Below are positions 39,232 to 55,786 of a stretch of 59,545 nucleotides of DNA, piece by piece; positions within the stretch are counted from its first letter, which is position 1, and each line of letters begins with the position of its first letter. The stretch is from assembly GCA_946804195.1 (NCBI GenBank), contig CAMPEU010000026.1:1-59545 (forward strand). The letters are read 5' to 3'. The DNA is from an uncultured Candidatus Saccharibacteria bacterium. Lineage in GTDB: Bacteria; Patescibacteriota; Saccharimonadia; Saccharimonadales; Saccharimonadaceae. The notes below the pieces were generated by a model that was not told the origin of the DNA, made no database searches, and saw only the letters and a program-made list of their open reading frames with translations. Both the position numbers and the translations under genes were made by a program.

Positions 39232-39237
39232 ATCTCT

Positions 39238-39243
39238 ATTGTA
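39238..39243 (-). promoter_or_regulatory. -10 for leaderless GT2 gene
   Basis: TACAAT on the minus strand, with exactly 6 nt between it and the ATG at 39231, predicts transcription starting at the A of ATG. Confidence 0.6.
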
Positions 39244-39245
39244 GC

Positions 39246-40601
39246 CTATGAATGGCCAACTCCGATATAAGTAAGGCCTGCATTGATCGCCTCTGATGCG
39301 CTATATTGATTAACTGCGTCCATCAGTATCACGCCGTGCATGTTGGTTGCGATTTTAGAAGCTGGGAATTCAAGAATTTCCGGCCATTCTGTGGCGATAA
39401 CTGTGATGTCAGCCCCTTCAATAGCTTCTTTGATTGTGTCTGCCTGTTTAATTTCTTGTCGCAGGTCTGTAGCGGCTTCTTCGCTTGCCTGGGGATCATA
39501 AGTGATAACGCTTGCGCCAGCCTCTGCTAGTAGGTTGGCTAGTGAAACACCTGGTGATTTGCGGACATCGCTCGTACCGGCCTTGAATGCCAATCCTAGG
39601 ACAGCAACCTTTTTACCCGCTAATTCACCACTAATTGTGTCCTGAAGTTTGTCAACAATATAGCCTGGCATGTATTGGTTTTGGGCTTGTGCGGCCTGCA
39701 TAATTTTCAGATCAACTCCATATTCTAGTCCACTAGAGATGAGACCGCTGACGTCTTTTGGAAAGCATCCGCCACCATAACCACGTCCTGCATTCAAGAA
39801 TGCCCGACCGATTCGATTATCTGCGCCAACCGCATCCATAACTTCGATGACATCAGCATCGGACTTGTCTGCCAAGATAGCAATAGAGTTTGCGAAGGAT
39901 ATTTTGAGTGCCAAGAATGCATTTGCTGTTACCTTGATCAGTTCGGCGCTGTTGAGGCCGGTAGCGATATACTGATCGCCGCGCGGACCGACTGGCACGC
40001 TGGCAATGTGCGCTATATGATCACGGAACCTCTCGAGGCGTATGTAGATGTCGATAATTGCATCGACAGCATTTTTGTCATCACCGCCAACGACAACCCG
40101 ATCAAAGTACAGCGTGTCATAAACAGCCGTCCCTTCACGAAGGAATTCGGGGTTAGATACGTAGCTGATTTTTTTGTTTAGTTTTTTGAACAACGCCTCA
40201 ACTTTTTTACCAGTTCCAACCGGGACGGTACTTTTTTGCACATAGATAACGCCCGATTTCGCGTGTTTTGCTGCTTCAGTGGCGGCGTTAAAGATATACG
40301 TTAGATTAGAGCTACCGTCAGGATTATCGGGGGTACCGACGCACGAAAAGACAACGTCACTACTGGAAACGGCCTTTTCGTATGAAGTAGTCGGGATGAG
40401 GTCACCAGAATCTATAGCTAATTTGATAATAGGGTCCAGGCCATCTTCATAAAAGAATGAGCGACCTTGTTTAATAACATCTAAGCGCTCTTTGTTTGGT
40501 TCGATTAAATAAATCTTGTATCCGCAGTGTGCTAATAGTGCCGCAGTCGTCAGACCAACGTAGCCAGCGCCGAGAACGGTAATTGCAATTTGTTTATCCA
40601 T
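39246..40601 (-). CDS. UDP-glucose/GDP-mannose 6-dehydrogenase family
   Basis: 451 residues. The NAD-binding loop is LGAGYVGLTTAALLAHCGY; the catalytic Cys is in GRGYGGGCFPKDVSGLI, and the C-terminal domain has LGLAFKAGTSDVRKSP. Such enzymes oxidise a nucleotide hexose at C6 to the uronic acid. The neighbour ManC on the opposite strand leaves open whether UDP-glucose or GDP-mannose is the substrate; the general look is closer to UDP-glucose dehydrogenase. Confidence 0.88.
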   Translation of the reverse strand: MDKQIAITVLGAGYVGLTTAALLAHCGYKIYLIEPNKERLDVIKQGRSFFYEDGLDPIIKLAIDSGDLIPTTSYEKAVSSSDVVFSCVGTPDNPDGSSNLTYIFNAATEAAKHAKSGVIYVQKSTVPVGTGKKVEALFKKLNKKISYVSNPEFLREGTAVYDTLYFDRVVVGGDDKNAVDAIIDIYIRLERFRDHIAHIASVPVGPRGDQYIATGLNSAELIKVTANAFLALKISFANSIAILADKSDADVIEVMDAVGADNRIGRAFLNAGRGYGGGCFPKDVSGLISSGLEYGVDLKIMQAAQAQNQYMPGYIVDKLQDTISGELAGKKVAVLGLAFKAGTSDVRKSPGVSLANLLAEAGASVITYDPQASEEAATDLRQEIKQADTIKEAIEGADITVIATEWPEILEFPASKIATNMHGVILMDAVNQYSASEAINAGLTYIGVGHS

Positions 40602-40607
40602 ACGACT

Positions 40608-40613
40608 ATTTTA
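40608..40613 (-). promoter_or_regulatory. -10 for leaderless sugar dehydrogenase gene
   Basis: TAAAAT on the minus strand ends 6 nt before the ATG at 40601. It lies back to back with the manC promoter. Confidence 0.6.
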
Positions 40614-40635
40614 CACGGAAATTCTTCATCCACGT

Positions 40636-40641
40636 TATAAT
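40636..40641 (+). promoter_or_regulatory. -10 for leaderless manC
   Basis: TATAAT ends 6 nt before the ATG at 40648. A weak TTACAC lies 19 bp upstream of it. Confidence 0.65.
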
Positions 40642-40647
40642 AGGTGC

Positions 40648-41682
40648 ATGATTACCGTTATTATTGCAGGAGGGTCGGGCACTCGTTTGTGGCCACTGTC
40701 GACTCAGCATAAACCAAAACAACTATTATCACTTACGAACGATAAGTCGATGGTGCAGAATACATACGCGCGTACGAAATTATTAAGCAAAGACGTTTAT
40801 GTTGTTCCTGACACTAGTCATGCCGATGCTTTAAAGGCGCAATTACCAGAATTAGACGAGGATCATTTCGTTATTGAGCCAGGAAGACGCGGCACGGCAA
40901 ACTGTATCGTTGCTGCCTTAGCACATGTCTCGAAGAGACATGATCCCGATGAACCGGTTGCATTCGTGCATGCTGATCACCATATCCGTGATTCGAAGGG
41001 TTTTAGATTATGTTTTAAGGAAGCAGCAAAAGCTTCGGAAAGAACCGGTGAAATAGCTTTAATTGGGATTGAACCTACTTATCCCGCTACGGGTTTTGGC
41101 TATATTGAGCGAAACGGAGAAGTAGAAGGTCTAGAGGGTGTGTTTAGAGTGCAGAGCTTTAAGGAAAAACCAGACTTCAGAACGGCAAGGAAATACATGG
41201 CGAGTGGTAATTATTTATGGAATTGCGGTTATTTTGTTGGTTCAGTTAATACTTTCTTGAAAGCAATGGATCAGTATGCTCCGGAGTTGAAGGAGAGTTT
41301 CGAGAAACTTAAGAATATTTCAAACCCAGAAGAGTATAAAAGCACCTACTTATCATTCGAGAATGAAGTTATCGACATTGCTTTAATCGAAAAATCAAAA
41401 TCATTAATTGTTGTTCCTGCCGGCTTTGACTGGATGGATGTAGGTAGCTTTAAGGATTTACATGAGGCGAATCAGTCCGATGAACAGAACAATTATTTGT
41501 TGGGTGAGAATATTCATACTATCGAAGTAGAGAATGCATTTATTCGCAACGAAGAACCTGATAAGCATATTGCCGTTATCGGACTAGATAATGTTGTTGT
41601 AGTGAATACGCCGGACGGGTTATTGGTTGCTCGTAAAGACCTTAGTCATCGCGTCGGTGAAGTTGCGAAAAAGATTCAATAA
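40648..41682 (+). CDS. manC: Mannose-1-phosphate guanylyltransferase
   Basis: 344 residues, the single-domain form. The pyrophosphorylase signature GGSGTRLWPLSTQHKPKQLL, FVHADHHI, GFGYIERNGE, FKEKPDFRTA and NYLWNCGYFVG are all present. It makes GDP-mannose, the substrate for Gmd at 15499. The C-terminal isomerase domain of bifunctional ManC is absent. The first transcribed base is predicted to be at the ATG. Confidence 0.93.
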   Translation: MITVIIAGGSGTRLWPLSTQHKPKQLLSLTNDKSMVQNTYARTKLLSKDVYVVPDTSHADALKAQLPELDEDHFVIEPGRRGTANCIVAALAHVSKRHDPDEPVAFVHADHHIRDSKGFRLCFKEAAKASERTGEIALIGIEPTYPATGFGYIERNGEVEGLEGVFRVQSFKEKPDFRTARKYMASGNYLWNCGYFVGSVNTFLKAMDQYAPELKESFEKLKNISNPEEYKSTYLSFENEVIDIALIEKSKSLIVVPAGFDWMDVGSFKDLHEANQSDEQNNYLLGENIHTIEVENAFIRNEEPDKHIAVIGLDNVVVVNTPDGLLVARKDLSHRVGEVAKKIQ

Positions 41683-41738
41683 AAAAGATTGATGTAAACA
41701 AAACACCACTCAATTTTTATACATCGGTATCCATTATT

Positions 41739-41761
41739 ATTCAGTTTGCGCTGAATTTTTT
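41739..41761 (+). terminator. Probable terminator after manC
   Basis: ATTCAG, a TTTGCG loop and CTGAAT, followed by six T. The stem is short and AT-rich, so the call is moderate. Confidence 0.55.
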
Positions 41762-41829
41762 AATTGCTCATGTTTGTAAAAACAATATTTGGAAGATACA
41801 TTCGAGTGAATATAAGCGAGGGAAATCGA

Positions 41830-42954
41830 ATGAAAGCGCAACGACTACACTATGTGTTTATAACAGTATTGTTTATTTTAGGTAGCCTGTTGGGTCCGGT
41901 TGCTCAAGTAAGCGCCGGAAGTGGCGACAATTATCCGTGGAAAGCACAGACTAATTGGGAGCAATGCCAATCTGATGATTGGCAGTATTGTCAGCGTTGG
42001 TGTACGTCATGGGTTGCATGGGCACTACACGATAGGAATGATTTTGAAATTCCAAGCGGTCTAGGTAGTGCAAAAAACTGGTGCGGTTGGGCAAGGGACA
42101 ATGGCTATGATGTCGATATGAGTCCAAAGGTTGGATCTGTTGCATAGTGGACGTCAAATCACGTTGCATGGGTACAAGCTGTTAATTCCGATAACACGGT
42201 CACTGTTGAAGAGTATAACTACGGATATACAGGTAACTACAATACTCGTAATATTTCTAAGAGCAGCGTGTCTGGGTATATTCATTTCAAGGACATTGCA
42301 AATCAACCAAGTTTTACTAACGGAACTTATATTAAAAAGTCAGGTTCGGCAACTGTTTATGTAGTTGCGGGAGGTGCTCCAATTCCCGTTCCTAGCTGGA
42401 CATCGGTAGGTGGTGGCAAGAAAACTGTAACCATACCGTCAGGATCAATTAAGAAACGCCCGTTTAACGAGTATCCCGCTAGCGGCACGTATGTGCGAGA
42501 ATACGGCAAATTGACGGTATATATAATCGCAGGTGGCGCTCCAATTCCTCTGCCCAGCTGGGCGTCTGTTGGTGGTGGTAAGAAGTTCACATCGATTCCG
42601 GTAGGCTCTATCAATTTTTCGATGTTTAAAGACTATCCCGTCAACCAGACATACGTACGTGAACACGGTAGTCAAACTGTATATGTTGTAGCTGGTGGTG
42701 CTTTGATGCCGATATCCAGTTGGGCGTCTGTTGGTGGTGGTAAGAAGTTCACATCGATTCCCAGTGGATCAACCAAGTTCGCAATATTTAACAAGTATCC
42801 TATTGATGGTACATACGTTCGGGGGCATGCAACACGCAACCTTTATCTAGTTGATAAGGGTACGGCGCATTTAACGAACTGGTTACAGGCGGGGGTAACG
42901 TTTACGGACGTTGATCAAAAAGCAATCGATACAATATTGATGTTCAATAAGTAA
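41830..42954 (+). pseudogene. Secreted CHAP-like protein with four repeats, interrupted by in-frame TAG
   Basis: A signal peptide (YVFITVLFILGSLLGPVAQVSA) leads to a CHAP-like amidase domain: WCTSWVAWAL with the Cys, then VGSVA, an in-frame TAG at 42145-42147 (codon 106), then WTSNHVAWVQAV with the His. The frame stays open after the stop to 42954. The rest consists of 54-residue repeats (GTYVREYG...TVYIIAGGAPIPLPSWASVGGGKKFTSIP), three good copies and one degenerate, period 162 bp. A 41-bp identity joins 42559-42599 and 42721-42761. The stop splits the catalytic domain, so the product is dead unless the stop is read through or is a sequencing error. ATG 41830 has GAGGGAAA upstream. Confidence 0.8.
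42316..42850 (+). repeat. 162-bp tandem repeats in the CHAP-like gene
   Basis: About 3.3 copies with a 162-bp period, encoding 54-residue units. Copies two and three share 41 identical bases (42559-42599 and 42721-42761), which suggests recent duplication or gene conversion. Confidence 0.8.
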
Positions 42955-42988
42955 TTCGTCTCAACTAAATAAACATTACGCAAAAGGT

Positions 42989-42994
42989 TATAAT
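42989..42994 (+). promoter_or_regulatory. -10 for the mini-ORF/glmS operon
   Basis: TATAAT ends 8 nt before the ATG at 43003. Confidence 0.55.
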
Positions 42995-43002
42995 AAGCGT
43001 AG

Positions 43003-43083
43003 ATGCCCAGACAAAAACTATCAGAATATAGCGCCAAAAGAAATGTGTTGGAACGGCTGAGCATTTCGGTCTATTCGATATGA
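43003..43083 (+). CDS. Possible 26-residue mini-protein upstream of glmS
   Basis: MPRQKLSEYSAKRNVLERLS and six further residues. It has a correctly placed -10 element (leaderless) and its TGA overlaps the ATG of the next mini-ORF (ATGA). It may be real, or the 5' half of one gene of about 60 residues broken by a frameshift. No family is recognised. Confidence 0.35.
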   Translation: MPRQKLSEYSAKRNVLERLSISVYSI

Positions 43084-43184
43084 AACACGAAGGCAAGGCG
43101 TGGCAGAGATATATCACGATGGCACACGACGAAGGGTTGTTTAGATTAGGACCAGAAGACGTTAGATATATGGAGGATAAATAG
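43080..43184 (+). CDS. Possible 34-residue mini-protein directly before glmS
   Basis: Begins MKHEGKAWQRYITMAHDEGL and ends EDVRYMEDK. It overlaps the previous mini-ORF by ATGA and stops 1 nt before the glmS ATG; the glmS ribosome binding site GGAGGA is inside it. The frame is open from about 43032, so it could be the second half of a frameshifted gene. Function unknown. Confidence 0.4.
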   Translation: MKHEGKAWQRYITMAHDEGLFRLGPEDVRYMEDK

Positions 43185-43185
43185 T

Positions 43186-45000
43186 ATGTGCGGAATAGTT
43201 GGATATGTTGGTAACAGAAAAGCACAAGATGTGTTGTTGGAAGGCCTGCAACGCCTAGAATATCGAGGATACGACAGCGCTGGAATCGTGACCATGGGCG
43301 AGTCTGCGACGCTACTACGAGCAAATGGAAAAGTAGCAGAATTAGAAGCAGTTGTTGCGAAAAAAGCAACAGGAGACACTATTGGCATAGGACATACGCG
43401 CTGGGCAACTCATGGTGAACCTTCCGAGGTTAATGCGCACCCTCACCGCGCAGGCGATGTCTATTTGGTTCATAACGGTATTATTGAAAACTACAAAGAG
43501 TTAAAGATGCAGCTGAAAGATCACGAATTTGTTAGCAAGACCGATAGTGAGGTACTGGCTGCGTTGATAGATTCGCTGTACGACGACAGCACAACACTTG
43601 AATCGGCGGTTGGTCAGTCGTTAAAGCTTGTTGAAGGAACGTACGGAATTGCAGTCGTATCAATGCGCGAGCCGGGTACGGTTGTCGTTGCACGAAAAGG
43701 CAGTCCATTGATTATTGGCATCGGAGAAGGTGAAACAATTATTGCGAGTGATGCATCGGCCCTGGTTGGTCACACCGAAAAGGCGATTTATCTGAATGAT
43801 GGTGAGTTGGCAGTGTGTACTGCAGATAATGTCGATGTGAAGGACCATGCGTCAAAAAAATTGAGTCCAAAGGTTGAAAAAATAGAAGCTAATATGGCGG
43901 CTATTCAAAAGCAAGGTTACGATCACTTTTTGCTAAAAGAAATCATGGAGCAACCAACTAGCTTGCGACAAACACTTCGTGGACGTGTAATACCCGCAGA
44001 GAATCGAGCGCATTTGGGCGGTTTGAATATGTCCGATAAGGAATTAAAATCGATTGAACATGTTGTTATTGTTGGTTGCGGAACTGCCTCGTATGCGGGG
44101 ATGTTAGCTTCTTATTACATAGAGCAACTTGTTGATGGCTTGACTGTTCAGGTAGAGACCGCATCGGAATTTCGTTATCGCTCTTTTCACCTACCCCAAA
44201 ATACAGTTGCGTTAATTGTTAGCCAGTCGGGTGAGACAGCCGATACGTTAGCTTGTTTGCGCGAGATAAAAAGTCGTGGAATCAGGACACTGGGCGTGGT
44301 AAACGCTGTTGGGTCGACGATTGCACGCGAAGTAGATGGTGGCGTATATGTTCATGCTGGTCCCGAAATCTCTGTTGCCAGCACAAAGGCGTTTACGAGT
44401 CAGGTTGCAGCGATGGTGATATTTGGTATTCAGATGGCAAATGCAAAAAAGACCAACGACAAAGAGCTAGATAGCTATATAAATGAACTAGCGCAATTAC
44501 CTGATGAGATAGAGAAATCATTGCAGGAATTGAAGCCTGAAGTAGAAAAGATAGCAAAAAAATATGCACAATACGAACATGCGTTTTTCTTGGGCCGCGA
44601 TGTGTTGTATCCAACTGCGCTCGAAGGAGCATTAAAGCTAAAAGAAGTTAGCTATATTCATGCTGAAGGTCAGGCGGGGGGCGAGTTGAAACATGGATCC
44701 CTCGCACTCGTTGACGATCGGTTTTTTGAGGTAGTATTGCTACACGATACGTGGCTATTAGACAAAAGTCTCAGCAATCTCGCAGAAGTAAATGCGCGCG
44801 GTGGCCACGTGGTCGCAATTACAAATAGTGATCGTGACATCGATGCCGAGACGGTACTGCGGGTGTCGACAAAACTAAGGATCTTTACGCCGCTCATCTT
44901 TAACGTCGCTCAACAATTGCTGGCGTATTATGTTGCTGTCGCTCGCGGTACGGATGTAGACCAGCCCCGCAACCTGGCGAAAAGTGTCACTGTTGAATAG
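43186..45000 (+). CDS. glmS: Glutamine-fructose-6-phosphate aminotransferase (isomerizing)
   Basis: 604 residues, normal length. MCGIVGYVG gives the N-terminal catalytic Cys of the glutaminase domain; GHTRWATHGEPSEVNAHPH follows. Two SIS domains come next (VIVGCGTASYAGMLASYYIEQL, SQSGETADTL, EISVASTKAFTSQ), with a C-terminal DQPRNLAKSVTVE. It makes glucosamine-6-phosphate, the first step toward UDP-GlcNAc for peptidoglycan and glycans. Confidence 0.97.
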   Translation: MCGIVGYVGNRKAQDVLLEGLQRLEYRGYDSAGIVTMGESATLLRANGKVAELEAVVAKKATGDTIGIGHTRWATHGEPSEVNAHPHRAGDVYLVHNGIIENYKELKMQLKDHEFVSKTDSEVLAALIDSLYDDSTTLESAVGQSLKLVEGTYGIAVVSMREPGTVVVARKGSPLIIGIGEGETIIASDASALVGHTEKAIYLNDGELAVCTADNVDVKDHASKKLSPKVEKIEANMAAIQKQGYDHFLLKEIMEQPTSLRQTLRGRVIPAENRAHLGGLNMSDKELKSIEHVVIVGCGTASYAGMLASYYIEQLVDGLTVQVETASEFRYRSFHLPQNTVALIVSQSGETADTLACLREIKSRGIRTLGVVNAVGSTIAREVDGGVYVHAGPEISVASTKAFTSQVAAMVIFGIQMANAKKTNDKELDSYINELAQLPDEIEKSLQELKPEVEKIAKKYAQYEHAFFLGRDVLYPTALEGALKLKEVSYIHAEGQAGGELKHGSLALVDDRFFEVVLLHDTWLLDKSLSNLAEVNARGGHVVAITNSDRDIDAETVLRVSTKLRIFTPLIFNVAQQLLAYYVAVARGTDVDQPRNLAKSVTVE

Positions 45001-45044
45001 AGTTGCTTTTTTATCAAGTTTATGCTAATATTATATCTGTTAAC

Positions 45045-45050
45045 TAATAT
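45045..45050 (+). promoter_or_regulatory. -10 for leaderless unknown gene
   Basis: TAATAT ends 8 nt before the ATG at 45059; there is no Shine-Dalgarno sequence. Confidence 0.4.
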
Positions 45051-45058
45051 AGATAAAC

Positions 45059-46156
45059 ATGCACGATAAACAAAAAACATATTTAAACAAAACAACAAAA
45101 GCCGAAAGGTTTCAGATTGATATTGGCGAGCAAGATAAAATCGCAGATATCATTCGTGAAAAACACCCAAGTTGGCCAAAAATTGAACTCACCTTTTTCT
45201 TTAATATGCACGACACGATAGAAGATATGCGAGGCGTCGAACAGTTGATACGCGAGAACGATATTGTGCTGTACGAGGAATTCGGCAAGAATACGGCTCT
45301 GATAGATTTTTTTTCTAGTCTAAGCGATCAGCCAGATCGGGACGTAGAGGAGTATCTAGATATACCAAAATTTGGCACGAGGAATACGATATTTGAACCA
45401 ATTGTACGGTCCCTATATGGACAGAAAAAAGGTGTTGGTGTTATTGATATAGGCGAAAAGCCCGAAGAGAAAGAGTTAATAGGCGCTTTTGTAAAGCGTT
45501 CCAGAGATAGACAGCCCTCCGGCTTACCTCTTGATGAAGCTGTATCATTTTATAATGCAAAAGAGGCAGATCTGGCTCATCTTCAAAACCGACGCGAGGA
45601 TATGATTCCATTGAACCTTGAACCGGAATTAGAGAAGATCTTTAAAAATCACAAAGAAATACAAGATCAGGAAAAAGTAGATGTGCTACTAATCATGGGC
45701 TCGTACCACACGCGCTTACGACATGTGTTTGGTGAACATGGTATAGATACAGAGGGGCACTTTAGCGATGGAGATACTCATATCTATGGCTATGGTGATG
45801 AATTACTTCGAGCGCATGCATTTAATAAGGAGCCATCCGCTGATTTGCAGAAGCGTGCATATATAGAATCTTTGTTGATGTTGCCTTTAGCAATAGCTCT
45901 CCGACGCAGTAGCGTATCGAGTGATGAGCAAGTGATTTACTTGCGTAATGCAGTTTCAAAACTGAATAAAGAGGATATGGACACAATATACAAACTTTCC
46001 GAAAAAAACTGGTTGAGTCTCAATAAACTGGATGAAATCTTTGAACATAGAGGATTGGGCGGTTTGCCTAGGAGTGAAGCTGAAATCAAAACAAAAAACG
46101 ATACGACTTACAAGGTTGTCATGCGCCGAGTTGGTGACAAGGCAATCCGCACCTAG
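45059..46156 (+). CDS. Conserved-looking soluble protein of unknown function
   Basis: 365 residues, no signal peptide or membrane segment, charged and mostly helical in appearance. Two stretches, FFNMHDTIEDMRGVEQLIRENDIVLYEEFG and VDVLLIMGSYHTRLRHVFGEHG, faintly resemble the two halves of TraB/TIKI-type metal-dependent proteins, which use a Gly-His near the N-terminus, a glutamate after a strand, and a later G-x-x-H. The match is too weak to assign a function. The gene stands alone between glmS and a beta-rich surface protein. Confidence 0.6.
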   Translation: MHDKQKTYLNKTTKAERFQIDIGEQDKIADIIREKHPSWPKIELTFFFNMHDTIEDMRGVEQLIRENDIVLYEEFGKNTALIDFFSSLSDQPDRDVEEYLDIPKFGTRNTIFEPIVRSLYGQKKGVGVIDIGEKPEEKELIGAFVKRSRDRQPSGLPLDEAVSFYNAKEADLAHLQNRREDMIPLNLEPELEKIFKNHKEIQDQEKVDVLLIMGSYHTRLRHVFGEHGIDTEGHFSDGDTHIYGYGDELLRAHAFNKEPSADLQKRAYIESLLMLPLAIALRRSSVSSDEQVIYLRNAVSKLNKEDMDTIYKLSEKNWLSLNKLDEIFEHRGLGGLPRSEAEIKTKNDTTYKVVMRRVGDKAIRT

Positions 46157-46311
46157 GAGAAAAAGCACTACTCGCCACACTACGGATATTCCTATACATA
46201 AAGCGACGTACGCTAAATTTAAAGTAATGAGGGTCTTCTTAATAAGAAAGATTTGAAACATCTTGCCAATATGTTTTTTAAAGCTTATAGTTAAAAAAAG
46301 AATTATCACAC

Positions 46312-47979
46312 ATGGAAGAAAATCAAGATCAACCAAGCCGTAAAGGCGACGTAAATACCGGGGTCAAAGAACACGGCGTATCGCGGTGGTCTGCATTTTT
46401 GTTCGGTTCACGTAAGCGAAAATTTACAACTTCAGTTGTTCTCGTCGCTGTTATCGTGGCGGGAATTATTGCAATACCGCAGGCACGCTATGCAGCTTTT
46501 GGTTTATTTATTAAGAAAGATGTCAGTGTCGTAATTCAGGACACTGCAACTAAGAGCGTAGTTATTGACGCGGAAGTTACCATTGGTGATAAAACGGCTG
46601 TAACGAATGATGAGGGCAAGGCAATCATTCGCGAAGTACCCGTCGGTGACTATGTGATTATGATAAAAAAGCGCTATTACAGTGATGGTGAACAGAACTA
46701 CAACGTTCCAATTATCGGTGATACTAAAAAATTAGAAATATCTATGGATGCAACTGGCCGGCAAGTACCTATTTCGGTAACGGACAAAATAAGCCACGAC
46801 TTATTAGATAATGTAAAAATTACAATTGGAGACTCGTCTGCAGTTACCGACAAGGATGGATTGGCGACAGTGGTGTTGCCTACGGGTAAAAAGGAGCTAA
46901 CGGGCGACCTAGAGCTCGATGGTTATAACAAACTAGAAGTAAAAGTTGTTGTTACCGAAGAAAAAGACATTAATAAATTTTCAATTGTTCCTGTTGGACG
47001 AATTTATTACCTTAGTAAACTGACGGGCAAGATTAATGTGATGAGTGCAAATCTTGACGGCAGTGATTCAAAGATTATTGTCAAAGGAACCGGAAATGAA
47101 AGCGACAGAAAGACGGTATTATTGGCGTCCACGGACTGGAGATACTTGGCATTATCTGCGGATAGGGACCCTAAAATCAGCGGAGAACTATATATTATTG
47201 ACACAAAATCAGGCAAAATGAGCACTATGGACCAGGGCAACGCAGACTTTAGTCTCGTTGGCTGGTCGGGACATAAGTTCGTCTATGTAGTGGATCGGAA
47301 TGATGTTGATTACTATGAACCAAAACGCCAAGCATTAAAGAGTTATGATGCCGAAGTAGAAAAGATTGTCACATTAGATCAAACCCAGGCAGAGGGCAGC
47401 CTTTCAGACACCTATATATTTGGAGACGACGTTGCTTACGTACGGCAGCAAACCGATGGCAAGAATCAATTGGTCGTAACTGGTGTCGATAAATCTCAGG
47501 TAAAGATAATTAAAAGCTTTAATTCATGGGTGTCCGTAGAGCCCGATGGGCCATGTGAGTTATATATTCAGTCTTACGATGATAATACCGATTCGTATAA
47601 ATACTATAGATATATGTACGAGGACACCAAAGCCGAATTGATTGATGAGATTGATGATTTTGGTGGGAAATATTATCCAACATACTTAATATCACCCACT
47701 GGAAAGAATGTTCTTTGGCACGATCCTCGAGATGGAAAGAACGTGATCCTTATTGGTGATAACGAGGGTGAGAACGAAAAAACTATCGCTCGTCTTTCAG
47801 ACTATTCGACATATGGCTGGTATACGGATGATTACATACTTTTGACAAAAGATGGTAGTGAGCTATACATAGCACCATCAAATACACTCTTAAAGGACGT
47901 AGAGCCTCTAAAAATCACCAATTATCACAAACCGGCTATTACTTTCTCTGGCTATGGTTCGGGCTACGGCGGTCTTTAA
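46312..47979 (+). CDS. Membrane-anchored protein with PEGA/CnaB-like domains and a beta-propeller-like region
   Basis: 555 residues. One transmembrane segment (about 42-62), then two carboxypeptidase-regulatory/CnaB-like beta-sandwich repeats (about 72-145 and 150-225, each with a VT(I/N)DEGKA- or VTDKDGLA-type turn). A TolB/WD40-like region follows, with repeated RIYYLSKLTGKINVM and LYIIDTKSGKMS strands. The end GYGSGYGGL is Gly-rich. Likely a surface protein for adhesion or sensing; no enzyme motif is seen. Its stop shares TTAA (47976-47979) with the convergent glycosyltransferase. Confidence 0.65.
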   Translation: MEENQDQPSRKGDVNTGVKEHGVSRWSAFLFGSRKRKFTTSVVLVAVIVAGIIAIPQARYAAFGLFIKKDVSVVIQDTATKSVVIDAEVTIGDKTAVTNDEGKAIIREVPVGDYVIMIKKRYYSDGEQNYNVPIIGDTKKLEISMDATGRQVPISVTDKISHDLLDNVKITIGDSSAVTDKDGLATVVLPTGKKELTGDLELDGYNKLEVKVVVTEEKDINKFSIVPVGRIYYLSKLTGKINVMSANLDGSDSKIIVKGTGNESDRKTVLLASTDWRYLALSADRDPKISGELYIIDTKSGKMSTMDQGNADFSLVGWSGHKFVYVVDRNDVDYYEPKRQALKSYDAEVEKIVTLDQTQAEGSLSDTYIFGDDVAYVRQQTDGKNQLVVTGVDKSQVKIIKSFNSWVSVEPDGPCELYIQSYDDNTDSYKYYRYMYEDTKAELIDEIDDFGGKYYPTYLISPTGKNVLWHDPRDGKNVILIGDNEGENEKTIARLSDYSTYGWYTDDYILLTKDGSELYIAPSNTLLKDVEPLKITNYHKPAITFSGYGSGYGGL

Positions 47980-49097
47980 CTCTTGGTTGTTTGGTCGCTA
48001 ACAACTTTTCGGATTTTTGTGAGGAACAAGGATTTTTCGAAGCGTCTTGCTTTGCGATTGCATGTTGCGGGCAGGAATGTTGATGTGTCAGCCTGTTCGA
48101 TTGCATTTGCGACCGCTTGAACGGATTGTTCATGAAACAACACGCCACAATCACTGCTGACAATATCACGTGAACCACCGCGATCGAACGCTATGACGGG
48201 TGCACCGGCTGCTAGGGCTTCAATGGCGACGATACCAAAATCCTCTTCGCTGGGGAAAATAAAACCCTTTGCATTGTTGAGGGCTTCGGTAACTGCATCG
48301 TCAGATGCATTTCCGGTACGATCGTTATAAAATTCGACAGTTGGTCCGGCCGCATCAATCAAGTGCTGATGCTCGCTACCATTTCCATAAACCTGTAGAG
48401 GCATGCCTAGTTTGGTAGCCGCCTTCACCGCTAGGTCTATGCGTTTGTATGGAACTTGACGGCCTATTGTTACGTAGAAATCGCTTCGTTCGCGCGATGG
48501 TTCGAAACGGTTAGTATCAACTGGAGGGTGGATGACCGTGGATGGTTTGCCATAATATTTTTTGATACGTTTTTGTACTTCGGTGCTGTTTGCAATAAAT
48601 ACATCAACATTTTGTGCAGCCTTGTAGTCCGAGCGACGCAGAGATGGTACAAGAAGCGGAATTGCGAGCTTTATGAGCCAATTCAGCTTACCAAACCCTG
48701 GGTCGCGCTTGTATTCATCATAGTGTGACCAATAATAGCGGATAGGCGTGTGGCAATAACAAATGTGAATTTGGTCTGGACGCGTTTTGCGCACTTGTTT
48801 TGCCTCGGCGCTGGAACTGCTGATGATAATGTCATAATCTGACAAATCAAGTTTGCGGAAAGCTCGACCACGCATGTGTGGAAAGAATTTGTGCAGCTTG
48901 CGAAACGGTCCCGGTAGGTTTTGCAGGTACGTTGTGCGTATATCGAGATCGTTGAATAATGGAACGGCTTCCGGTGCGTATGTACTGGTATAAATTGGTG
49001 CATCGGGAAAGGCTTCATGGAGAGCTAGTACCACTCGTTCGGCACCGCCCATGGTTGTTAGCCAATCCGCAACAATCGCAATTTTCGGCACTGGCAT
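47976..49097 (-). CDS. GT4-family glycosyltransferase
   Basis: 373 residues. KIAIVADWLTTMGGAERVVLALHEAFPDAPIYTS is typical of the WbaZ/GT4 group often seen as mannosyl- or rhamnosyltransferases. ICYCHTPIRYYWSHYDEY is another hallmark of this subgroup. The donor site is GFIFPSEEDFGIVAIEALAAGAPVIAFDRGGSRDIV. It starts within the stop of the PNPT gene, so they are coupled and may act in sequence on the same lipid carrier. Confidence 0.9.
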   Translation of the reverse strand: MPVPKIAIVADWLTTMGGAERVVLALHEAFPDAPIYTSTYAPEAVPLFNDLDIRTTYLQNLPGPFRKLHKFFPHMRGRAFRKLDLSDYDIIISSSSAEAKQVRKTRPDQIHICYCHTPIRYYWSHYDEYKRDPGFGKLNWLIKLAIPLLVPSLRRSDYKAAQNVDVFIANSTEVQKRIKKYYGKPSTVIHPPVDTNRFEPSRERSDFYVTIGRQVPYKRIDLAVKAATKLGMPLQVYGNGSEHQHLIDAAGPTVEFYNDRTGNASDDAVTEALNNAKGFIFPSEEDFGIVAIEALAAGAPVIAFDRGGSRDIVSSDCGVLFHEQSVQAVANAIEQADTSTFLPATCNRKARRFEKSLFLTKIRKVVSDQTTKS

Positions 49098-50536
49098 TAT
49101 TTTGCCCCAGTCCGACGAAATACAACTGCGATTGTTTTGAACAGAATTTTGATGTCCAACCAGAATGACCAGTTGCGTGCATAAAATAACTCTAGTTCGA
49201 TGCGCTCATCGAATGATAAATTATTGCGACCACTGACCTGCCACAGTCCTGTAACACCTGATTTTACGCTATGGAGGAGTGCCGTTTTGATAGGCGAGAA
49301 CTTTGCCTCGGCAGGCATGATCGGGCGTGGTCCAACTAGGCTGAGGTCGCCACGAAGAACGCTAAAAATTTGCGGAAGTTCATCGAGCGACGTGTCACGG
49401 AGGAACTGACCAAACTTAGTAACGCGTGGGTCATGTTCGACTTTGTGATTTTTTTCGTATTCTAATGCCAGGTCTTCACGATTCATTTGACGAAACTCAT
49501 CAGCGGCGTTGAGGTGTGCATTTGGTCGATCGCGCATACTGCGAAATTTAGTAAGGCCGATCGGTTGGCTAAATCGACTGAGACGTTTATGTGTGTAAAA
49601 AATCGGTCCTGGGTTAAAGAGCTTTTGCAGGATAATAATAATCAAGAATACGGGCGATAATATAACCAATAGAATGAGCGCACTAATTCGATCAAAGACC
49701 CCTTTTGCGATTGCACCCCATCCGATTAAAGGTGTCTCACTCACTGTAATCATTGGATAGCCGAGGAACACGTCGACAGTGTTCTTGCCTGCATAAAACT
49801 CCGTTTCTCCGGGAATAAAACTGTAGTTAATGTGATTTGTTTGTGCAGCATTTAGAATGCGTTGATTACGTTCAGAACTATCGTACAGGTCGGTTTGAAT
49901 AATCGTGCTGATACGCATGTTTTTGATCTCTTTGAGCGCGGATTCAACAGTTGAATAATGATGAATACCCAAGCCCTCTGGCACGACTTTGGCCGGTCCT
50001 GCAACGGCGACAATTTGGTAGCCACTGTTACGTGTATCGGCGAGATTATAGGCTATATCATGTGTTGCATCACTATTTCCAATGACAAGCACCCGACGGA
50101 TGCCTCGTCCAAATCGAAAGAGTAAACTACGTATGAACCTTAGGAACTCGCGTTCAAAAAGTAATAGGAGGAATGATCCCAAAAAGGCGTATGCAACGAC
50201 AAGCCTGGCGGGAAAAATATGCTTTTCGGTGATGTATTCCCATCCAATAACGACGAGGATTCCTATAAATGCACCAAGTGCGATTTTACTCCACTCAACG
50301 AGGCGCCTGTTGTATGTATTTGAATTGTACAGGCCTAACGAGGCAAAGATCAGCACCCAAATTGGAACAATAAATAAGGACGCTTGAAGGTAATCGATTG
50401 CATAAACGTTTGCGACCAATGGACGATGATCAATTTGTACGCGGAGAATGTATGCCAGAGTAAAGGCAATTGTAAGTACAAATATATCAGCTAGGACGAG
50501 AATTAGGCTGTAGAGTTTTGTATTTTTTGTTGGCAT
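49097..50536 (-). CDS. Polyprenyl-phosphate sugar-1-phosphate transferase (WbaP/WcaJ type)
   Basis: 479 residues. Four or five N-terminal helices (to about 130), a Rossmann-like middle domain (RRVLVIGNSDATHDIAYNL) and the catalytic bacterial sugar transferase domain: a helix near 275-300, then FYTHKRLSRFSQPIGLTKFRSM, RDTSLDELPQIFSVLRGDLSLVGPRP and GVTGLWQVSGRNNLSFDERIELELFYA. It starts glycan assembly by placing a sugar phosphate on undecaprenyl phosphate. The ATG at 50548 lies inside the -10 hexamer, so the ATG at 50536 is used. Confidence 0.93.
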   Translation of the reverse strand: MPTKNTKLYSLILVLADIFVLTIAFTLAYILRVQIDHRPLVANVYAIDYLQASLFIVPIWVLIFASLGLYNSNTYNRRLVEWSKIALGAFIGILVVIGWEYITEKHIFPARLVVAYAFLGSFLLLLFEREFLRFIRSLLFRFGRGIRRVLVIGNSDATHDIAYNLADTRNSGYQIVAVAGPAKVVPEGLGIHHYSTVESALKEIKNMRISTIIQTDLYDSSERNQRILNAAQTNHINYSFIPGETEFYAGKNTVDVFLGYPMITVSETPLIGWGAIAKGVFDRISALILLVILSPVFLIIIILQKLFNPGPIFYTHKRLSRFSQPIGLTKFRSMRDRPNAHLNAADEFRQMNREDLALEYEKNHKVEHDPRVTKFGQFLRDTSLDELPQIFSVLRGDLSLVGPRPIMPAEAKFSPIKTALLHSVKSGVTGLWQVSGRNNLSFDERIELELFYARNWSFWLDIKILFKTIAVVFRRTGAK

Positions 50537-50546
50537 GTGTACGCTC

Positions 50547-50555
50547 ATTATAGCA
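50547..50555 (-). promoter_or_regulatory. Extended -10 of the PNPT operon
   Basis: TGCTATAAT on the minus strand (TATAAT at 50547-50552) ends 10 nt before the ATG at 50536. It lies back to back with the wzy-like promoter. Confidence 0.65.
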
Positions 50556-50588: not shown

Positions 50589-51890
50589 ATGAAGCTGAGT
50601 GTGGCAGAGCGTCTATTTGCGGGGGCATTATTGACTATTGCATTTGGAATTGTGGTGCATACGCCTTTGACGGTTTGGTTATCCACGATGCATCCAGATT
50701 TAGAGTTGGTCCTAAAATCTTGGAAAGAGCTAGTGATGGGCGTTGCGATGTTTTTATTTATTGCTATTGTGTGGCAAAGGAAGCTCTTTACCAAATTTTT
50801 TCACGATCGAATTGTTCAGATTTCCTTAGGGTATGCGGCCCTGCATATAATGATGATGGTCGCCTATCGTAATGATATCGAAGCGATGTCGGCTGGACTA
50901 TTGATTGATTTACGATATGTTTTGTACTTTGTGTTGGTCTATGGTGCGGCAAAATTATTGCCTAATTTCCGTACTATATTCTTGAAGCTAATTTTTGCAG
51001 GTGCGGCGGTGGTATTGGGCTTTGCATTATTGCAAATGTTTATTACTCCCCGTGATGTATTGTCATCGATCGGATACAGTACAAATACGATTGCGCCGTA
51101 TCTAACTGTCGATGATAACGAGGCATACGTCAGAATCAATAGTACACTGCGCGGACCTAATCCTCTTGGTGCATACGCGGTTATCGTATTCGCACTGACC
51201 ATGGCGGCTGCAATGAAGTTTGGGCGTAGGTTCAAGAATGACCAACATGTTGTCGCGGGAATCGCCGTTGCTGTGTCATTATTGATGCTCGGTGTTTCTT
51301 ATTCGAGGAGTGCATTGCTGGGTTTGATGCTGGCGGTTGGCATAATAATCATGATTCGCGCAAAGCCATCGATGCGTCGACGTCTAATACTTGTTCTAGG
51401 GGGCATCGTTGTTGGATTTGGAGCTATTTTATTGATGGCACGTGCTGATCCAACAATTTCACATATTGTGTGGCACGACGATCCGAGTGGTGTTTCAGAA
51501 ATTGATTCAAACGCGGGGCATGCCGAATCGTTGGTTGATGGTACGTGGCGTATGATTAGGCAACCGTTTGGTGGTGGTGTTGGTAGTACGGGTTCGGCAT
51601 CATTGCTTACTAATAAACCGCTGATTATTGAAAATCAATATTTGCACACAGCTCACGAGGTCGGATGGCTCGGGTTCGGGTTGTTTATATGGTTGTTTGT
51701 CGAGATTATGCGTAGATTGTGGCAAAGGCGTCGTGGTGCATTAAGCTTGGGTGTATTTGCCAGCGGATGTGCATTGGCGGTTGTTGGGCTGTTGCTCCCT
51801 GTGTGGGTTGATGATACCGTGAGTATAATATGGTGGGGCTTGGCGGGTCTCGCCGCGGGAGGGACATATCGTGCGCGACAGAACAACTAA
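50589..51890 (+). CDS. O-antigen ligase/polymerase-like membrane protein (Wzy/WaaL family)
   Basis: 433 residues with about 11 hydrophobic helices. The helix LLMLGVSYSRSALLGLMLAVGIIIMI carries the family Arg-Ser motif; a long outer loop (about 290-355) follows and ends in ENQYLHTAHEVGWLGFGLFIWLF, with the conserved His of WaaL-type ligases. It probably polymerises or ligates lipid-linked repeat units on the outer face. It is divergent from the PNPT gene and overlaps the LexA-like gene by 20 bp. Confidence 0.82.
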   Translation: MKLSVAERLFAGALLTIAFGIVVHTPLTVWLSTMHPDLELVLKSWKELVMGVAMFLFIAIVWQRKLFTKFFHDRIVQISLGYAALHIMMMVAYRNDIEAMSAGLLIDLRYVLYFVLVYGAAKLLPNFRTIFLKLIFAGAAVVLGFALLQMFITPRDVLSSIGYSTNTIAPYLTVDDNEAYVRINSTLRGPNPLGAYAVIVFALTMAAAMKFGRRFKNDQHVVAGIAVAVSLLMLGVSYSRSALLGLMLAVGIIIMIRAKPSMRRRLILVLGGIVVGFGAILLMARADPTISHIVWHDDPSGVSEIDSNAGHAESLVDGTWRMIRQPFGGGVGSTGSASLLTNKPLIIENQYLHTAHEVGWLGFGLFIWLFVEIMRRLWQRRRGALSLGVFASGCALAVVGLLLPVWVDDTVSIIWWGLAGLAAGGTYRARQNN

Positions 51891-52212
51891 AAAACAGCAA
51901 GAATTATTTCAGTTCATTAGTGATTTTTTGGGAGAGCATAACTATGCCCCTAGCTATCGCGAGATTATGCGGGCACTTGATTATAAATCGGTATCAACCG
52001 TAGCGGTTCATGTGGATGGATTGATTGCAAAAAATTACCTCAAAAAATCTGAGAAATCAGCCAGATCAATCCGAGTTGTAACAGTAGCAGGTTCAGTTGA
52101 TAATAACCACCTTGCGTGGCTAAGGACGGAAGTCACAAAACGTGAGGCTGATGGGTCGCAACAGTCAGAGATTGATACGCTCAAGAGCGCCATAGACATT
52201 CTAGAAAAATGA
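51871..52212 (+). CDS. LexA-like DNA-binding domain protein without protease domain
   Basis: 113 residues. The LexA-type winged helix is clear: TKKQQELFQFISDFLGEHNYAPSYREIMRALDYKSVSTVAVHVDGLIAKNYL, with the recognition helix near residues 35-50. The S24 self-cleavage domain is missing; a short helical tail (about 80-113) replaces it. Start is GTG, with GGGAGGG upstream, overlapping the wzy-like gene. It cannot be cleaved in the LexA manner, so it may be a constitutive or ligand-free regulator of surface or stress genes. Confidence 0.78.
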   Translation: MRDRTTKKQQELFQFISDFLGEHNYAPSYREIMRALDYKSVSTVAVHVDGLIAKNYLKKSEKSARSIRVVTVAGSVDNNHLAWLRTEVTKREADGSQQSEIDTLKSAIDILEK

Positions 52213-52224: not shown

Positions 52225-53952
52225 ATGAAACTTCAACGGTTCGGACACGTCCGTTCGTTCGTCGAAAAACACAGGGTACAATCTGGTGTGTTTGTGGTGG
52301 CTGGTATTTGTGCGGTCATTATTATCATTCAGCTGGTTTATCCGTGGGACAAATTACCGCTTTACACAGTTATCGATAGCGTTGCAGTTGGTGGGAAATC
52401 AAACGACGAAGTCGTCGATATCATGAATAAAAAATACGCTGATGTATCGCTGCAATTATATTTTGGCGACGGTGCTCGACCGTATCGGGAGCCTCAGCCT
52501 GCGGATATAGGGCTGTCAATTGATAGCAGTAAACAAATTCAAACCAGTCAATACGAGTGGTGGCAGCGTTTAATTCCAACGTCGCTATGGTGGGCGCATC
52601 TACTAAATAATGACAAAGAAAAGCCAACATATAAAAATAATTCCGAAAAGGCACTTGCCTATATACAAAAGGAATTTGGCAAAGAATGCACAATACATCC
52701 TAGGAACGCGACACTGAAATACGACAACGATCGTTTGATGGTTGTATCTGCAATTGACGGCGGTACGTGTCAAACGGATGATGTATTAAAGTTATTAAAA
52801 AATGCAAAACCAACGCTCAACGACGCTGCAATAAAAATATCAATTAAACCAGAACCTGCAACAATTACGGATGTTGATGCCGGAAAGTTCGCATCAAAGA
52901 TTGAAGATAGAACGGCAACAGGTTTGACGATTGCGGTATTTGGAAATGCCGTAACTGTTGATCGACCAACTCTATTATCTTGGCTCGATTTTACCTCGCC
53001 CAATAGTGGAATGAAGGTGAGTGTTAATACAAAACGTGCGAATAAGTTTTTTGCAAATTCGATTTCGCCCAAAGTCACAAAATCAGCGGGAACAAGTCTT
53101 GTTACAACGCTCGATTTCACGATTATTTCACAGCAAACGGGGATTAGTGGGCAAGAGCTGAATATAGATGCAACTATCAAGGCGGTTGAAGATTGGTTGA
53201 CGGGATCAAAAGATGTTGTGAGCGCTCAAGTCAGTGCGGTTGCTCCGAATATTATCTATACGCGTAAATATAGTGCAACCGACACGGGTATCACTGCATT
53301 AATTACACAATTCGCTCAGTCACATTCGGGCAGTTTCGGTGTCAGTTTTATCGAACTGGATGGTCAAAAACGACGTGCGGTTTATCAGGACGGCAAGTTA
53401 TTTAGGACGGCAAGTACATATAAATTATTTGTGGCATATAGTACGCTCAAGCGTATAGAATCTGGCAAATGGAAGTGGTCGGATCAGATACAGGGTGGAC
53501 GCAATTTGGCGCAATGCTTTGACGATATGATTGTTAAATCTGATAATGCATGTGCAGAGGCATTGCTGTACAAAATTGGCTTTCGGGCGGTCACAGATGA
53601 AATTCATTCGATAGGTTTGAGTAATAGTTCGTTCATGAATGAACATATCGAGACAACAGCCGGTGATTTAACGACGTTTGTCGGCGCGCTATATGCAGGA
53701 CAAATACTGTCAAAGACGAGTACGAACACGCTATTGTCCGCAATGGAGAGAAATATTTTTCGTCAGGGTATTCCTGCGGGTGCAAAAGGAACAGTCGCGG
53801 ACAAGGTCGGCTTTTTGGAAGATTATTTGAATGACGCTGCGATTGTGTATAGTCCGACGGGCACGTATGCATTAACGATTATGACAAAGGGCAGCAGTTG
53901 GGGAACAATTGCAGAATTGACGCGACAGATTGAAGCTTTGCGTACGAAGTGA
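52225..53952 (+). CDS. Membrane-anchored class A beta-lactamase-fold serine hydrolase
   Basis: 575 residues. One transmembrane segment (about 18-38), then two peptidoglycan-binding/VanW-like (PG_binding_4) domains (about 45-330), then a beta-lactamase class A/PBP-type domain from about 350. The catalytic Ser397-x-x-Lys400 is in RTASTYKLF, the SDN motif is Ser439-Asp440-Asn441, and KVG stands in the KTG position. It may be a D,D-carboxypeptidase, an endopeptidase or a beta-lactamase. A diverged paralog lies downstream. Confidence 0.82.
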   Translation: MKLQRFGHVRSFVEKHRVQSGVFVVAGICAVIIIIQLVYPWDKLPLYTVIDSVAVGGKSNDEVVDIMNKKYADVSLQLYFGDGARPYREPQPADIGLSIDSSKQIQTSQYEWWQRLIPTSLWWAHLLNNDKEKPTYKNNSEKALAYIQKEFGKECTIHPRNATLKYDNDRLMVVSAIDGGTCQTDDVLKLLKNAKPTLNDAAIKISIKPEPATITDVDAGKFASKIEDRTATGLTIAVFGNAVTVDRPTLLSWLDFTSPNSGMKVSVNTKRANKFFANSISPKVTKSAGTSLVTTLDFTIISQQTGISGQELNIDATIKAVEDWLTGSKDVVSAQVSAVAPNIIYTRKYSATDTGITALITQFAQSHSGSFGVSFIELDGQKRRAVYQDGKLFRTASTYKLFVAYSTLKRIESGKWKWSDQIQGGRNLAQCFDDMIVKSDNACAEALLYKIGFRAVTDEIHSIGLSNSSFMNEHIETTAGDLTTFVGALYAGQILSKTSTNTLLSAMERNIFRQGIPAGAKGTVADKVGFLEDYLNDAAIVYSPTGTYALTIMTKGSSWGTIAELTRQIEALRTK

Positions 53953-53998: not shown

Positions 53999-55786
53999 AT
54001 GAATGCACTAGAGATTAACTACTGGCTAAAGTCTAATTGGAAACTCATCGTTGCGATTGTGGCCGCGCTTTTCATTCTCGGACAAACAGTTTATCAAATA
54101 GTGTACCCTAGTAGTCGACTTTTGCCGGGGGTTGTCGTTGACGGCGTGTCGCTTGGTGGCATGAAGTACGAAGAAGCGTCTAAAAAATTGGATGGACTTT
54201 ATGGAGGGCTAGAACTCGAAATTTACTTTGGCAAGAACGAGGCGGCATTTCAAAAACCAAAAATGAAAGATGTTGGGATTGGTGTCGATAACGAGGCTCG
54301 TTTGAGCACGATCACTTATCCGTTCTTTTTACGATTTGTACCTGGGTCAATGTGGTGGGTTCCGGGTGCTAGCAAGGTCGGCGATATCAAGTATGTGTAC
54401 GACAAGAATAAGATTTCTCAGTACACGACCGGACAGGTTGGTGAGGATTGTAGCATTCCACCACAAAATGCAACGTTAAAGCTTGTCGACAGCAAACTCC
54501 AACTAGTACCCTCTATCGCTGGTGGAGAATGTGACATTACGGAATTGCAACAAGCGCTCGCTGAGGTAAAGCCTGACTCGGACAAAGTTAATACGGTGAG
54601 AATTGCGATTGATGAAACACCGGCACCGATTACCGATGATATTGCGCGGAAGCTTGCCGCAAAATTGAATAGCCGCATGGCAGTTCCGATGCCGATTACC
54701 GTAGACAAAAAGACGGATACTATACCTGGTCGCGTAGTATTGGGTTGGTTGGATTTTGTTGCTGATGTTCCCGAGAAGCGCATTGATAGCGTGGCAAGTG
54801 AGTTTGCTCGCCTACTATTTAACGTGAACGAAACCAGGATGGAAGCATATTTGAACCAGGGTATTGCTTCACAACTAATCATTGAACCCGGAGTGAGCAA
54901 AGTGTCTACTTTGGATTTTAAAGAGACATCACGAGTGAATGGCAAGAATGGACGTGCTATTGATATGCCGCGCGCATCACAATCGGTTGAGGATTATATA
55001 AATAGCAAGCTTGATAGCGCCGTGGGAGCAACAAAAGTCGTTGGTCCAACAACTGATTTTACGCGTGACTACAGTCCAACGAGCGTCGGATTTTCGGCAT
55101 TATTGTCTCAATATGCTCACGACAATGAAGGTACCTACGGTATAGCATTCCAAGAACTTAGCGGTGTTAAAAGCCCCCGCAGTGCAACATATCGAGGCGA
55201 TGCTCAGATGCCCGCTGCTGGTATTCACGCACTGTATCTTGCCTATACGGATATTATGGAACAGCATGCTGGCACTTCGCGCTCCGTTGACATAATTACG
55301 GGTGATACGAATGCGACAGAGTGCTTCAAAGATATGCTGCAAAAGTTTGATTATGATTGTCGGGTTGGTTTTTATGAACATTTTGGTCATGCTACCTTGA
55401 AATCCCGGGCAGATGAATTGGGTCTGCAGAACACTATCTTTGTTGGGGAAGAAACGATTACGTCTGCGAATGATTTGCAAAAGTTATTCATTGGTTTGTA
55501 CAAAAACAAGATTGCTCGGATTGAAGGCGGTCAAAAGATACTCAGCACCATGCGTTCGATACGTTCTAACGAGGGCATACCTGCCGGCGTTGCGAGCGGT
55601 ACATTTACTCATGTAATTGGCGAGGAAGAAGCCGTGCACAATGATGCCGGGATTGTATATAGCACGAATAAGGGTGCCTATGCGTTAACTATACTTTCAG
55701 AGGGAACAGAATGGAGTCATATTAAGGGCCTTGTTCAAAAGATCGAAGCTCTCAAGTCGAAGGAAATTCCAAAGGACGCAACATAA
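53999..55786 (+). CDS. Paralog of the preceding protein with lost catalytic residues
   Basis: 595 residues with the same plan as its neighbour: anchor (about 16-36), PG_binding_4-like domains, then a beta-lactamase fold. The similarity is clear (VVDGVSLGGMKYEEASKKL, DAGIVYSTNKGAYALTIL). The nucleophile motif is AAGIHALY, so Gly408 and Ala411 stand where Ser and Lys should be; the SDN motif is FDY and KTG is VIG. All three motifs are lost, so this is probably a non-enzymatic wall-binding or regulatory protein. The frame is intact over 595 codons, so it is not simple decay. Confidence 0.8.
   Translation: MNALEINYWLKSNWKLIVAIVAALFILGQTVYQIVYPSSRLLPGVVVDGVSLGGMKYEEASKKLDGLYGGLELEIYFGKNEAAFQKPKMKDVGIGVDNEARLSTITYPFFLRFVPGSMWWVPGASKVGDIKYVYDKNKISQYTTGQVGEDCSIPPQNATLKLVDSKLQLVPSIAGGECDITELQQALAEVKPDSDKVNTVRIAIDETPAPITDDIARKLAAKLNSRMAVPMPITVDKKTDTIPGRVVLGWLDFVADVPEKRIDSVASEFARLLFNVNETRMEAYLNQGIASQLIIEPGVSKVSTLDFKETSRVNGKNGRAIDMPRASQSVEDYINSKLDSAVGATKVVGPTTDFTRDYSPTSVGFSALLSQYAHDNEGTYGIAFQELSGVKSPRSATYRGDAQMPAAGIHALYLAYTDIMEQHAGTSRSVDIITGDTNATECFKDMLQKFDYDCRVGFYEHFGHATLKSRADELGLQNTIFVGEETITSANDLQKLFIGLYKNKIARIEGGQKILSTMRSIRSNEGIPAGVASGTFTHVIGEEEAVHNDAGIVYSTNKGAYALTILSEGTEWSHIKGLVQKIEALKSKEIPKDAT

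Follow-up and report, generated by a model that had tools for sequence, protein, structure and literature searches.

EnvC, NlpD and ActS are degenerate LytM proteins that activate amidases. They resemble the protein considered here, P2, in being catalytically dead relatives of wall hydrolases that serve regulatory or adaptor roles, although they activate an unrelated enzyme family and their fold is unlike that of P2. CspC and CspA of C. difficile differ from P2 in having a subtilisin fold and in acting in spore germination. The likeness lies in their being conserved pseudoproteases kept for a non-catalytic role (PMC12880746). In H. pylori, the LytM paralogs Csd1 and Csd2, one active and the other degenerate, form a heterodimer (PMC5053510). 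Like Csd1-Csd2, P2 and its paralog P1 are a homologous wall-peptidase pair with one active site intact and one degenerate. However, Csd1-Csd2 are of the M23 zinc peptidase type, with another fold and chemistry, and P2 persists apart from P1.

Among penicillin-recognising proteins, PBP-A of Thermosynechococcus (TLL2115, 2J7V) is the best solved relative of P1 by sequence and one of the top fold matches of P2; LRA-5, 3CJM and 4EWF, class A-like proteins related to PBP-A, are grouped with it as the nearest known. Unlike this group, P2 is without SxxK, SxN and KxG and carries a transmembrane helix and a PG_binding_4-type ectodomain in the same chain. The ectodomain recalls the peptidoglycan-binding domain of E. 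faecium Ldtfm (1ZAT/2HKL), which, unlike those of P1 and P2, is joined to an L,D-transpeptidase. No described case of a conserved pseudoenzyme in the penicillin-recognising superfamily was found in the open literature searched, and the main text of the 2023 Cell paper on Patescibacteria Tn-seq (PMC10633639) mentions neither lactamase nor penicillin.

Identity and fold of P1 and P2

The window, that is the whole stretch of 59,545 nucleotides analysed, encodes P1 and P2 as intact open reading frames on the same strand, 46 bp apart.

52225..53952, + strand: P1, 575 aa, the paralog that keeps the motifs; closest solved relative by sequence PBP-A (2J7V)
53413..53424, + strand: P1 S397-T-Y-K400 (SxxK), from the motif alignment
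53539..53547, + strand: P1 S439-D-N441 (SDN), from the motif alignment
53803..53811, + strand: P1 K527-V-G529 (KVG), from the motif alignment
53999..55786, + strand: P2, the pseudoenzyme paralog, 595 aa; predicted membrane helix and ectodomain, then a degenerate class A beta-lactamase/PBP-A-like domain
54038..54103, + strand: P2 predicted membrane helix, residues 14-35 (a helix in the model, hydrophobic in sequence)
54110..55090, + strand: P2 PG_binding_4-type ectodomain, residues 38-364 (PF12229, weak Foldseek match to Ldtfm, constraint analysis)
55091..55768, + strand: P2 degenerate penicillin-recognising domain, residues 365-590 (Pfam, model, Foldseek, motif alignment)
55220..55231, + strand: P2 G408-I-H-A411 in place of SxxK, from the motif alignment
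55346..55354, + strand: P2 F450-D-Y452 in place of SDN, from the motif alignment
55613..55621, + strand: P2 V539-I-G541 in place of KVG, from the motif alignment

The two proteins align over their full length (BLASTP, 577 columns, 31% identity, 50% positives, E 1e-94) and have in common an N-terminal hydrophobic helix, a PG_binding_4-type ectodomain and a Beta-lactamase2 domain (PF13354). The Pfam match to the latter is 3.8e-31 for P1 and 3.6e-13 for P2, over profile positions 96-213 only in P2, which scores 49.8 bits against a cut-off of 22. Against PF12229, P1 scores 26.8 bits and P2 24.3 bits, both above the cut-off of 22.1. The ectodomain of the P2 model gives a weak Foldseek match to Ldtfm (2HKL/1ZAT; E 8.5e-3, TM 0.23), which supports, though it does not prove, a peptidoglycan-binding domain. 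Given this layout, P2 is presumably membrane-anchored and wall-facing. In the genome from which the window comes (0.99 Mb, 99.8% complete), P1 and P2 are the sole PF13354 proteins found; it also encodes three PF00905 transpeptidases and one VanY-type peptidase.

Judging by its sequence, a PBP of the DD-peptidase type is a likelier identity for P1 than an efficient beta-lactamase, because its best solved relative by profile is PBP-A (2J7V, 6.9e-10) and because its alignment with PBP-A leaves a gap in P1 at the omega loop, the site of the deacylating Glu166 in class A enzymes. P1 thus has the SxxK, SDN and KxG of PBP-A-like DD-peptidases and, like them, is without Glu166. Against NF033103, for which class A beta-lactamases proper score above 200 bits and carry Glu166, P1 reaches 56 bits and P2 has no match.

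The AlphaFold model of P2 has a mean pLDDT of 88.5, and Foldseek matches it to LRA-5, PBP-A and class A enzymes with E of about 1e-12 to 1e-14 (LRA-5, 1.2e-14). In the model, therefore, the class A beta-lactamase/PBP-A-like fold is retained, as the sequence-only reading had proposed. The same reading had Ser-x-x-Lys, SDN and KVG of the upstream protein replaced downstream by Gly/Ala, FDY and VIG, and the aligned positions of P1 and P2 agree with it. Across 17 P2 orthologs, all with open reading frames, the nucleophile position is Gly in every one, Lys is absent from the aligned SxxK and KxG positions throughout, and none retains SxN; all three motifs are kept throughout 23 P1-type proteins. 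Taken together, these counts indicate that the motif loss is neither a sequencing error nor a chance effect. P2 of genus g59 has a Lys or Arg two residues ahead of the KxG position, and a local misalignment could thus mask a basic residue at that site; the serine is Gly in these proteins as well.

Conservation across the 17 P2 proteins was searched for a replacement catalytic residue. None is conserved at the former active site, and at this level the alternative Ser/Lys pair that would have overturned the earlier interpretation is not seen either. It might be supposed that P2 has gained a new activity, or another nucleophile within the old pocket, given that most P2 proteins have Glu or His at the former Tyr position of STYK. 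Members of the penicillin-recognising superfamily have repeatedly changed substrate, which lends this idea some background. However, the position is variable (E10, H5, Y1, Q1). In or near the former motif positions, no Ser, Lys, His, Cys or Tyr is conserved clade-wide beyond two cysteines that are also found in P1, and a new activity is very improbable. P2 has none of the sequence marks of a serine beta-lactamase or DD-peptidase (SxxK; S-x-N; K-[TSV]-G). Combining homology to enzymes with lost catalytic residues and purifying selection across species, P2 is, on its residues, a true pseudoenzyme and presumably inactive.

The retained fold could also be read as that of a decoy or sensor that binds beta-lactams without hydrolysing them, the decoy having been suggested earlier. 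Covalent capture requires the lost serine, and since the acylated residue is Gly in all 17 orthologs the covalent form is unlikely. The ligand-holding SxN and KxG positions are likewise gone and are conserved as nothing else, and a decoy or sensor of any kind is hardly to be expected.

Age and spread of the motif loss

Querying a contig collection with the single sequence returned no relatives, while an alignment query returned matches named Candidatus Saccharibacteria or Saccharimonadia, for example CP011211.1 of Ca. Saccharibacteria GW2011_GWC2_44_17. A wider family search covered 295 genomes and was followed by reading of the motifs. The 17 P2-type proteins form one clade with support of 100/100 and come from at least seven genera of the same Saccharibacteria family, which answers the earlier call to look at conservation in relatives. 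Of the 10 genomes in the window's genus, 9 carry a P2 ortholog, which in two cases is truncated at a contig end; in the tenth, G006, neither P2 nor a LexA-like match was found.

Given the adjacency of the two genes, a genus-specific or recent tandem duplication was first considered, and it was rejected (p-AU 1.8e-6). The earlier description of P2 as an intact tandem copy holds as to its intactness, but the copy is old rather than young. By this phylogeny, the loss of the motifs is itself old, one event in the common ancestor of several Saccharibacteria genera.

Other degenerate copies were noted in the family. In G030 (L049 6818-8620, minus strand), a copy with DGVGR, NDV and ATG in place of the motifs adjoins a T4SS_pilin-type gene and is placed beside the P2 clade, on a long branch, in a larger tree. 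Further relatives with degraded motifs occur in G012, G092 and G042 (L060 5970-7628, L124 1045-2721 and L067 4906-5859, respectively), the copy in G042 lying directly before an intact one. Only the G030 copy grouped with P2 in the larger tree, and catalysis may have been lost more than once in this family. G006 (L039) and G007 (L041) have a divergent active paralog with S-A-N for S-D-N, beside a YchF-type GTPase-like open reading frame.

Locus context and the relation of P2 to P1

Three further features belong to this locus.

50589..51890, + strand: Wzy_C (O-antigen ligase/polymerase-type) protein, a conserved upstream neighbour
51871..52212, + strand: LexA-type winged-helix DNA-binding protein, 113 aa, without a peptidase domain, directly upstream of P1
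53962..53990, + strand: promoter-like site of P2 itself, GTGACA-17-TATACT, 8 nt before the ATG, with a similar site before P2 in relatives

The stretch 38290-50548, adjoining the pair, encodes glycosyltransferases, a UDP-glucose dehydrogenase-type protein, a nucleotidyl transferase, a SIS/glutamine amidotransferase (GlmS-type) protein and a bacterial sugar transferase. By their predicted products, the genes upstream of P1 and P2 are of surface-polysaccharide type. The LexA-type protein holds its position before P1 or P2 in many genera.

A promoter-like site similar to that of P2 lies upstream of P2 in most aligned relatives, G004 and G007 included, and from its distance to the ATG the P2 transcript is probably leaderless. 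The motif does not look like a widespread element, as no second copy was found in the window at up to three mismatches.

P2 could have its operon neighbour P1 as sole target, activating it, inhibiting it or forming half of a heterodimer with it. The tandem occurs in at least five genera (g1 and those of G071, G075, G079 and G090, in the latter four genomes downstream of Wzy_C and LexA-like genes), the branching orders of the P1 and P2 clades partly match, and Csd1-Csd2 (PMC5053510) provides a precedent for an active/degenerate pair. However, in g59 (G067, G110, G130, G142) and g55 (G063, G108) the P2-type gene follows the LexA-like gene alone and stays at this locus while active PF13354-type paralogs sit elsewhere in the genome; in G067, P1 is 473 kb away, and G108 has, besides P2, only an active paralog of a different subfamily. 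In G004, the LexA-like gene is followed by P2 on one contig with P1 not found between them, and no active paralog was found in this genome, which is 81% complete. G007 has the same order without P1 between, as weaker evidence given that contigs break in the region. Because P2 persists where P1 is elsewhere or is not found between, and has a promoter-like site of its own, an action on P1 alone is improbable. Regulation of the neighbour, as first suggested, is thus not the whole story; P2 may regulate an active paralog in trans.

Constraint on P2 and its probable role

Even the closest pair, G000-G008, has reached saturation at synonymous sites (pS about 0.75-0.8), and dN/dS therefore has no reliable value. 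In that pair, with pS so saturated, the pN/pS of P2 is 0.16 (ectodomain) and 0.15 (C-domain). The two paralogs differ in where they are conserved: mean identity is 0.39 in the ectodomain and 0.65 in the C-domain of P1, and 0.51 and 0.43, respectively, in P2. Of 66 genome pairs, which are not independent of one another, 63 show stronger conservation of the ectodomain in P2 than in P1, and all 66 show weaker conservation of the C-domain; the direction is the same in five of five phylogenetically separate pairs. Given this contrast between the paralogs, it seems to be chiefly the wall-binding-type half through which selection acts on P2, with the dead domain still kept. Only T479 and T488 are specifically conserved in the P2 C-domain, which also keeps C442 and C454, a cysteine pair that P1 has too.

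Decay towards loss would account for the missing motifs and for the failure to find P2 in G006. Against it, frames are open in all orthologs across several genera, purifying selection is evident, the promoter-like site is conserved and within the window's genus P2 evolves no faster than P1; that P2 is a pseudogene awaiting loss is extremely unlikely. The proposal of a retained non-catalytic role, by contrast, is well borne out by the single old loss, the purifying selection, the spread over at least seven genera and the promoter-like site.

Among the roles proposed earlier, wall anchoring fits best, since it is in the PG_binding_4-type ectodomain that P2 is conserved, though binding itself is predicted from the domain type. 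P2 might then be purely a structural wall anchor or attachment protein, independent of P1, with the dead domain as a tolerated remnant or spacer. Consistent with that, the ectodomain is under the strongest constraint, the C-domain is relaxed and P2 stays behind at loci from which P1 has gone; as the faster-evolving half, the C-domain may be a spacer rather than a docking module. However, the low pN/pS of the C-domain in the closest pair points to continued purifying selection, and its fold and both cysteines are kept and it has been deleted in 0 of 17 orthologs. We regard a pure anchor as possible but on balance unlikely.

We lean instead, with moderate confidence, towards P2 having descended from a PBP-A-like DD-peptidase to become a non-catalytic wall scaffold or adaptor, anchored in the membrane and probably partnering an active paralog. 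Under this scenario, an old duplication of the P1-type DD-peptidase gave rise to P2, which would have lost its acyl-transfer machinery once, in the common ancestor of several genera, and been retained as a structural adaptor. Its PG_binding_4-type ectodomain would hold peptidoglycan or a wall glycopolymer, as the domain type suggests. The dead penicillin-fold domain would provide docking, perhaps as one half of a heterodimer or as an allosteric partner, and would thereby place or modulate an active DD-peptidase, for instance P1 or a different PBP; both the partner and the direction of regulation are hypothetical. Csd1-Csd2 and EnvC/NlpD make such a pairing with an active paralog plausible by analogy.

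In several other genera, P2-type proteins begin with a cytoplasmic Pro/Gln/Tyr-rich tail of about 25-130 residues before the membrane helix (L107, L108, L109, L112, L114, L116, L118, L120, L121, L035 7030-8901 and L043). This tail, not seen in P1, could connect P2 to cytoplasmic machinery. It is mostly lost in the window's genus, where G002 and G009 have a short Gly/Pro-rich segment. A broader and rather doubtful extension is that tail, helix, wall-binding ectodomain and pseudo-DD-peptidase head make up a family-wide dead PBP-A-like transenvelope scaffold, which would organise wall or surface-polysaccharide assembly, and hence the attachment surface, in host-dependent ultrasmall Saccharibacteria.

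The genomes of Saccharibacteria are very small, yet several genera retain a protein of 600-700 residues with a long-lost enzyme centre. Given this retention, and a rate of change within the genus no faster than that of its active sister, P2 is a candidate envelope adaptor in epibiotic bacteria. For resistome surveys, matches to 'class A beta-lactamase' in these genomes include proteins unable to act on beta-lactams by the known mechanism.
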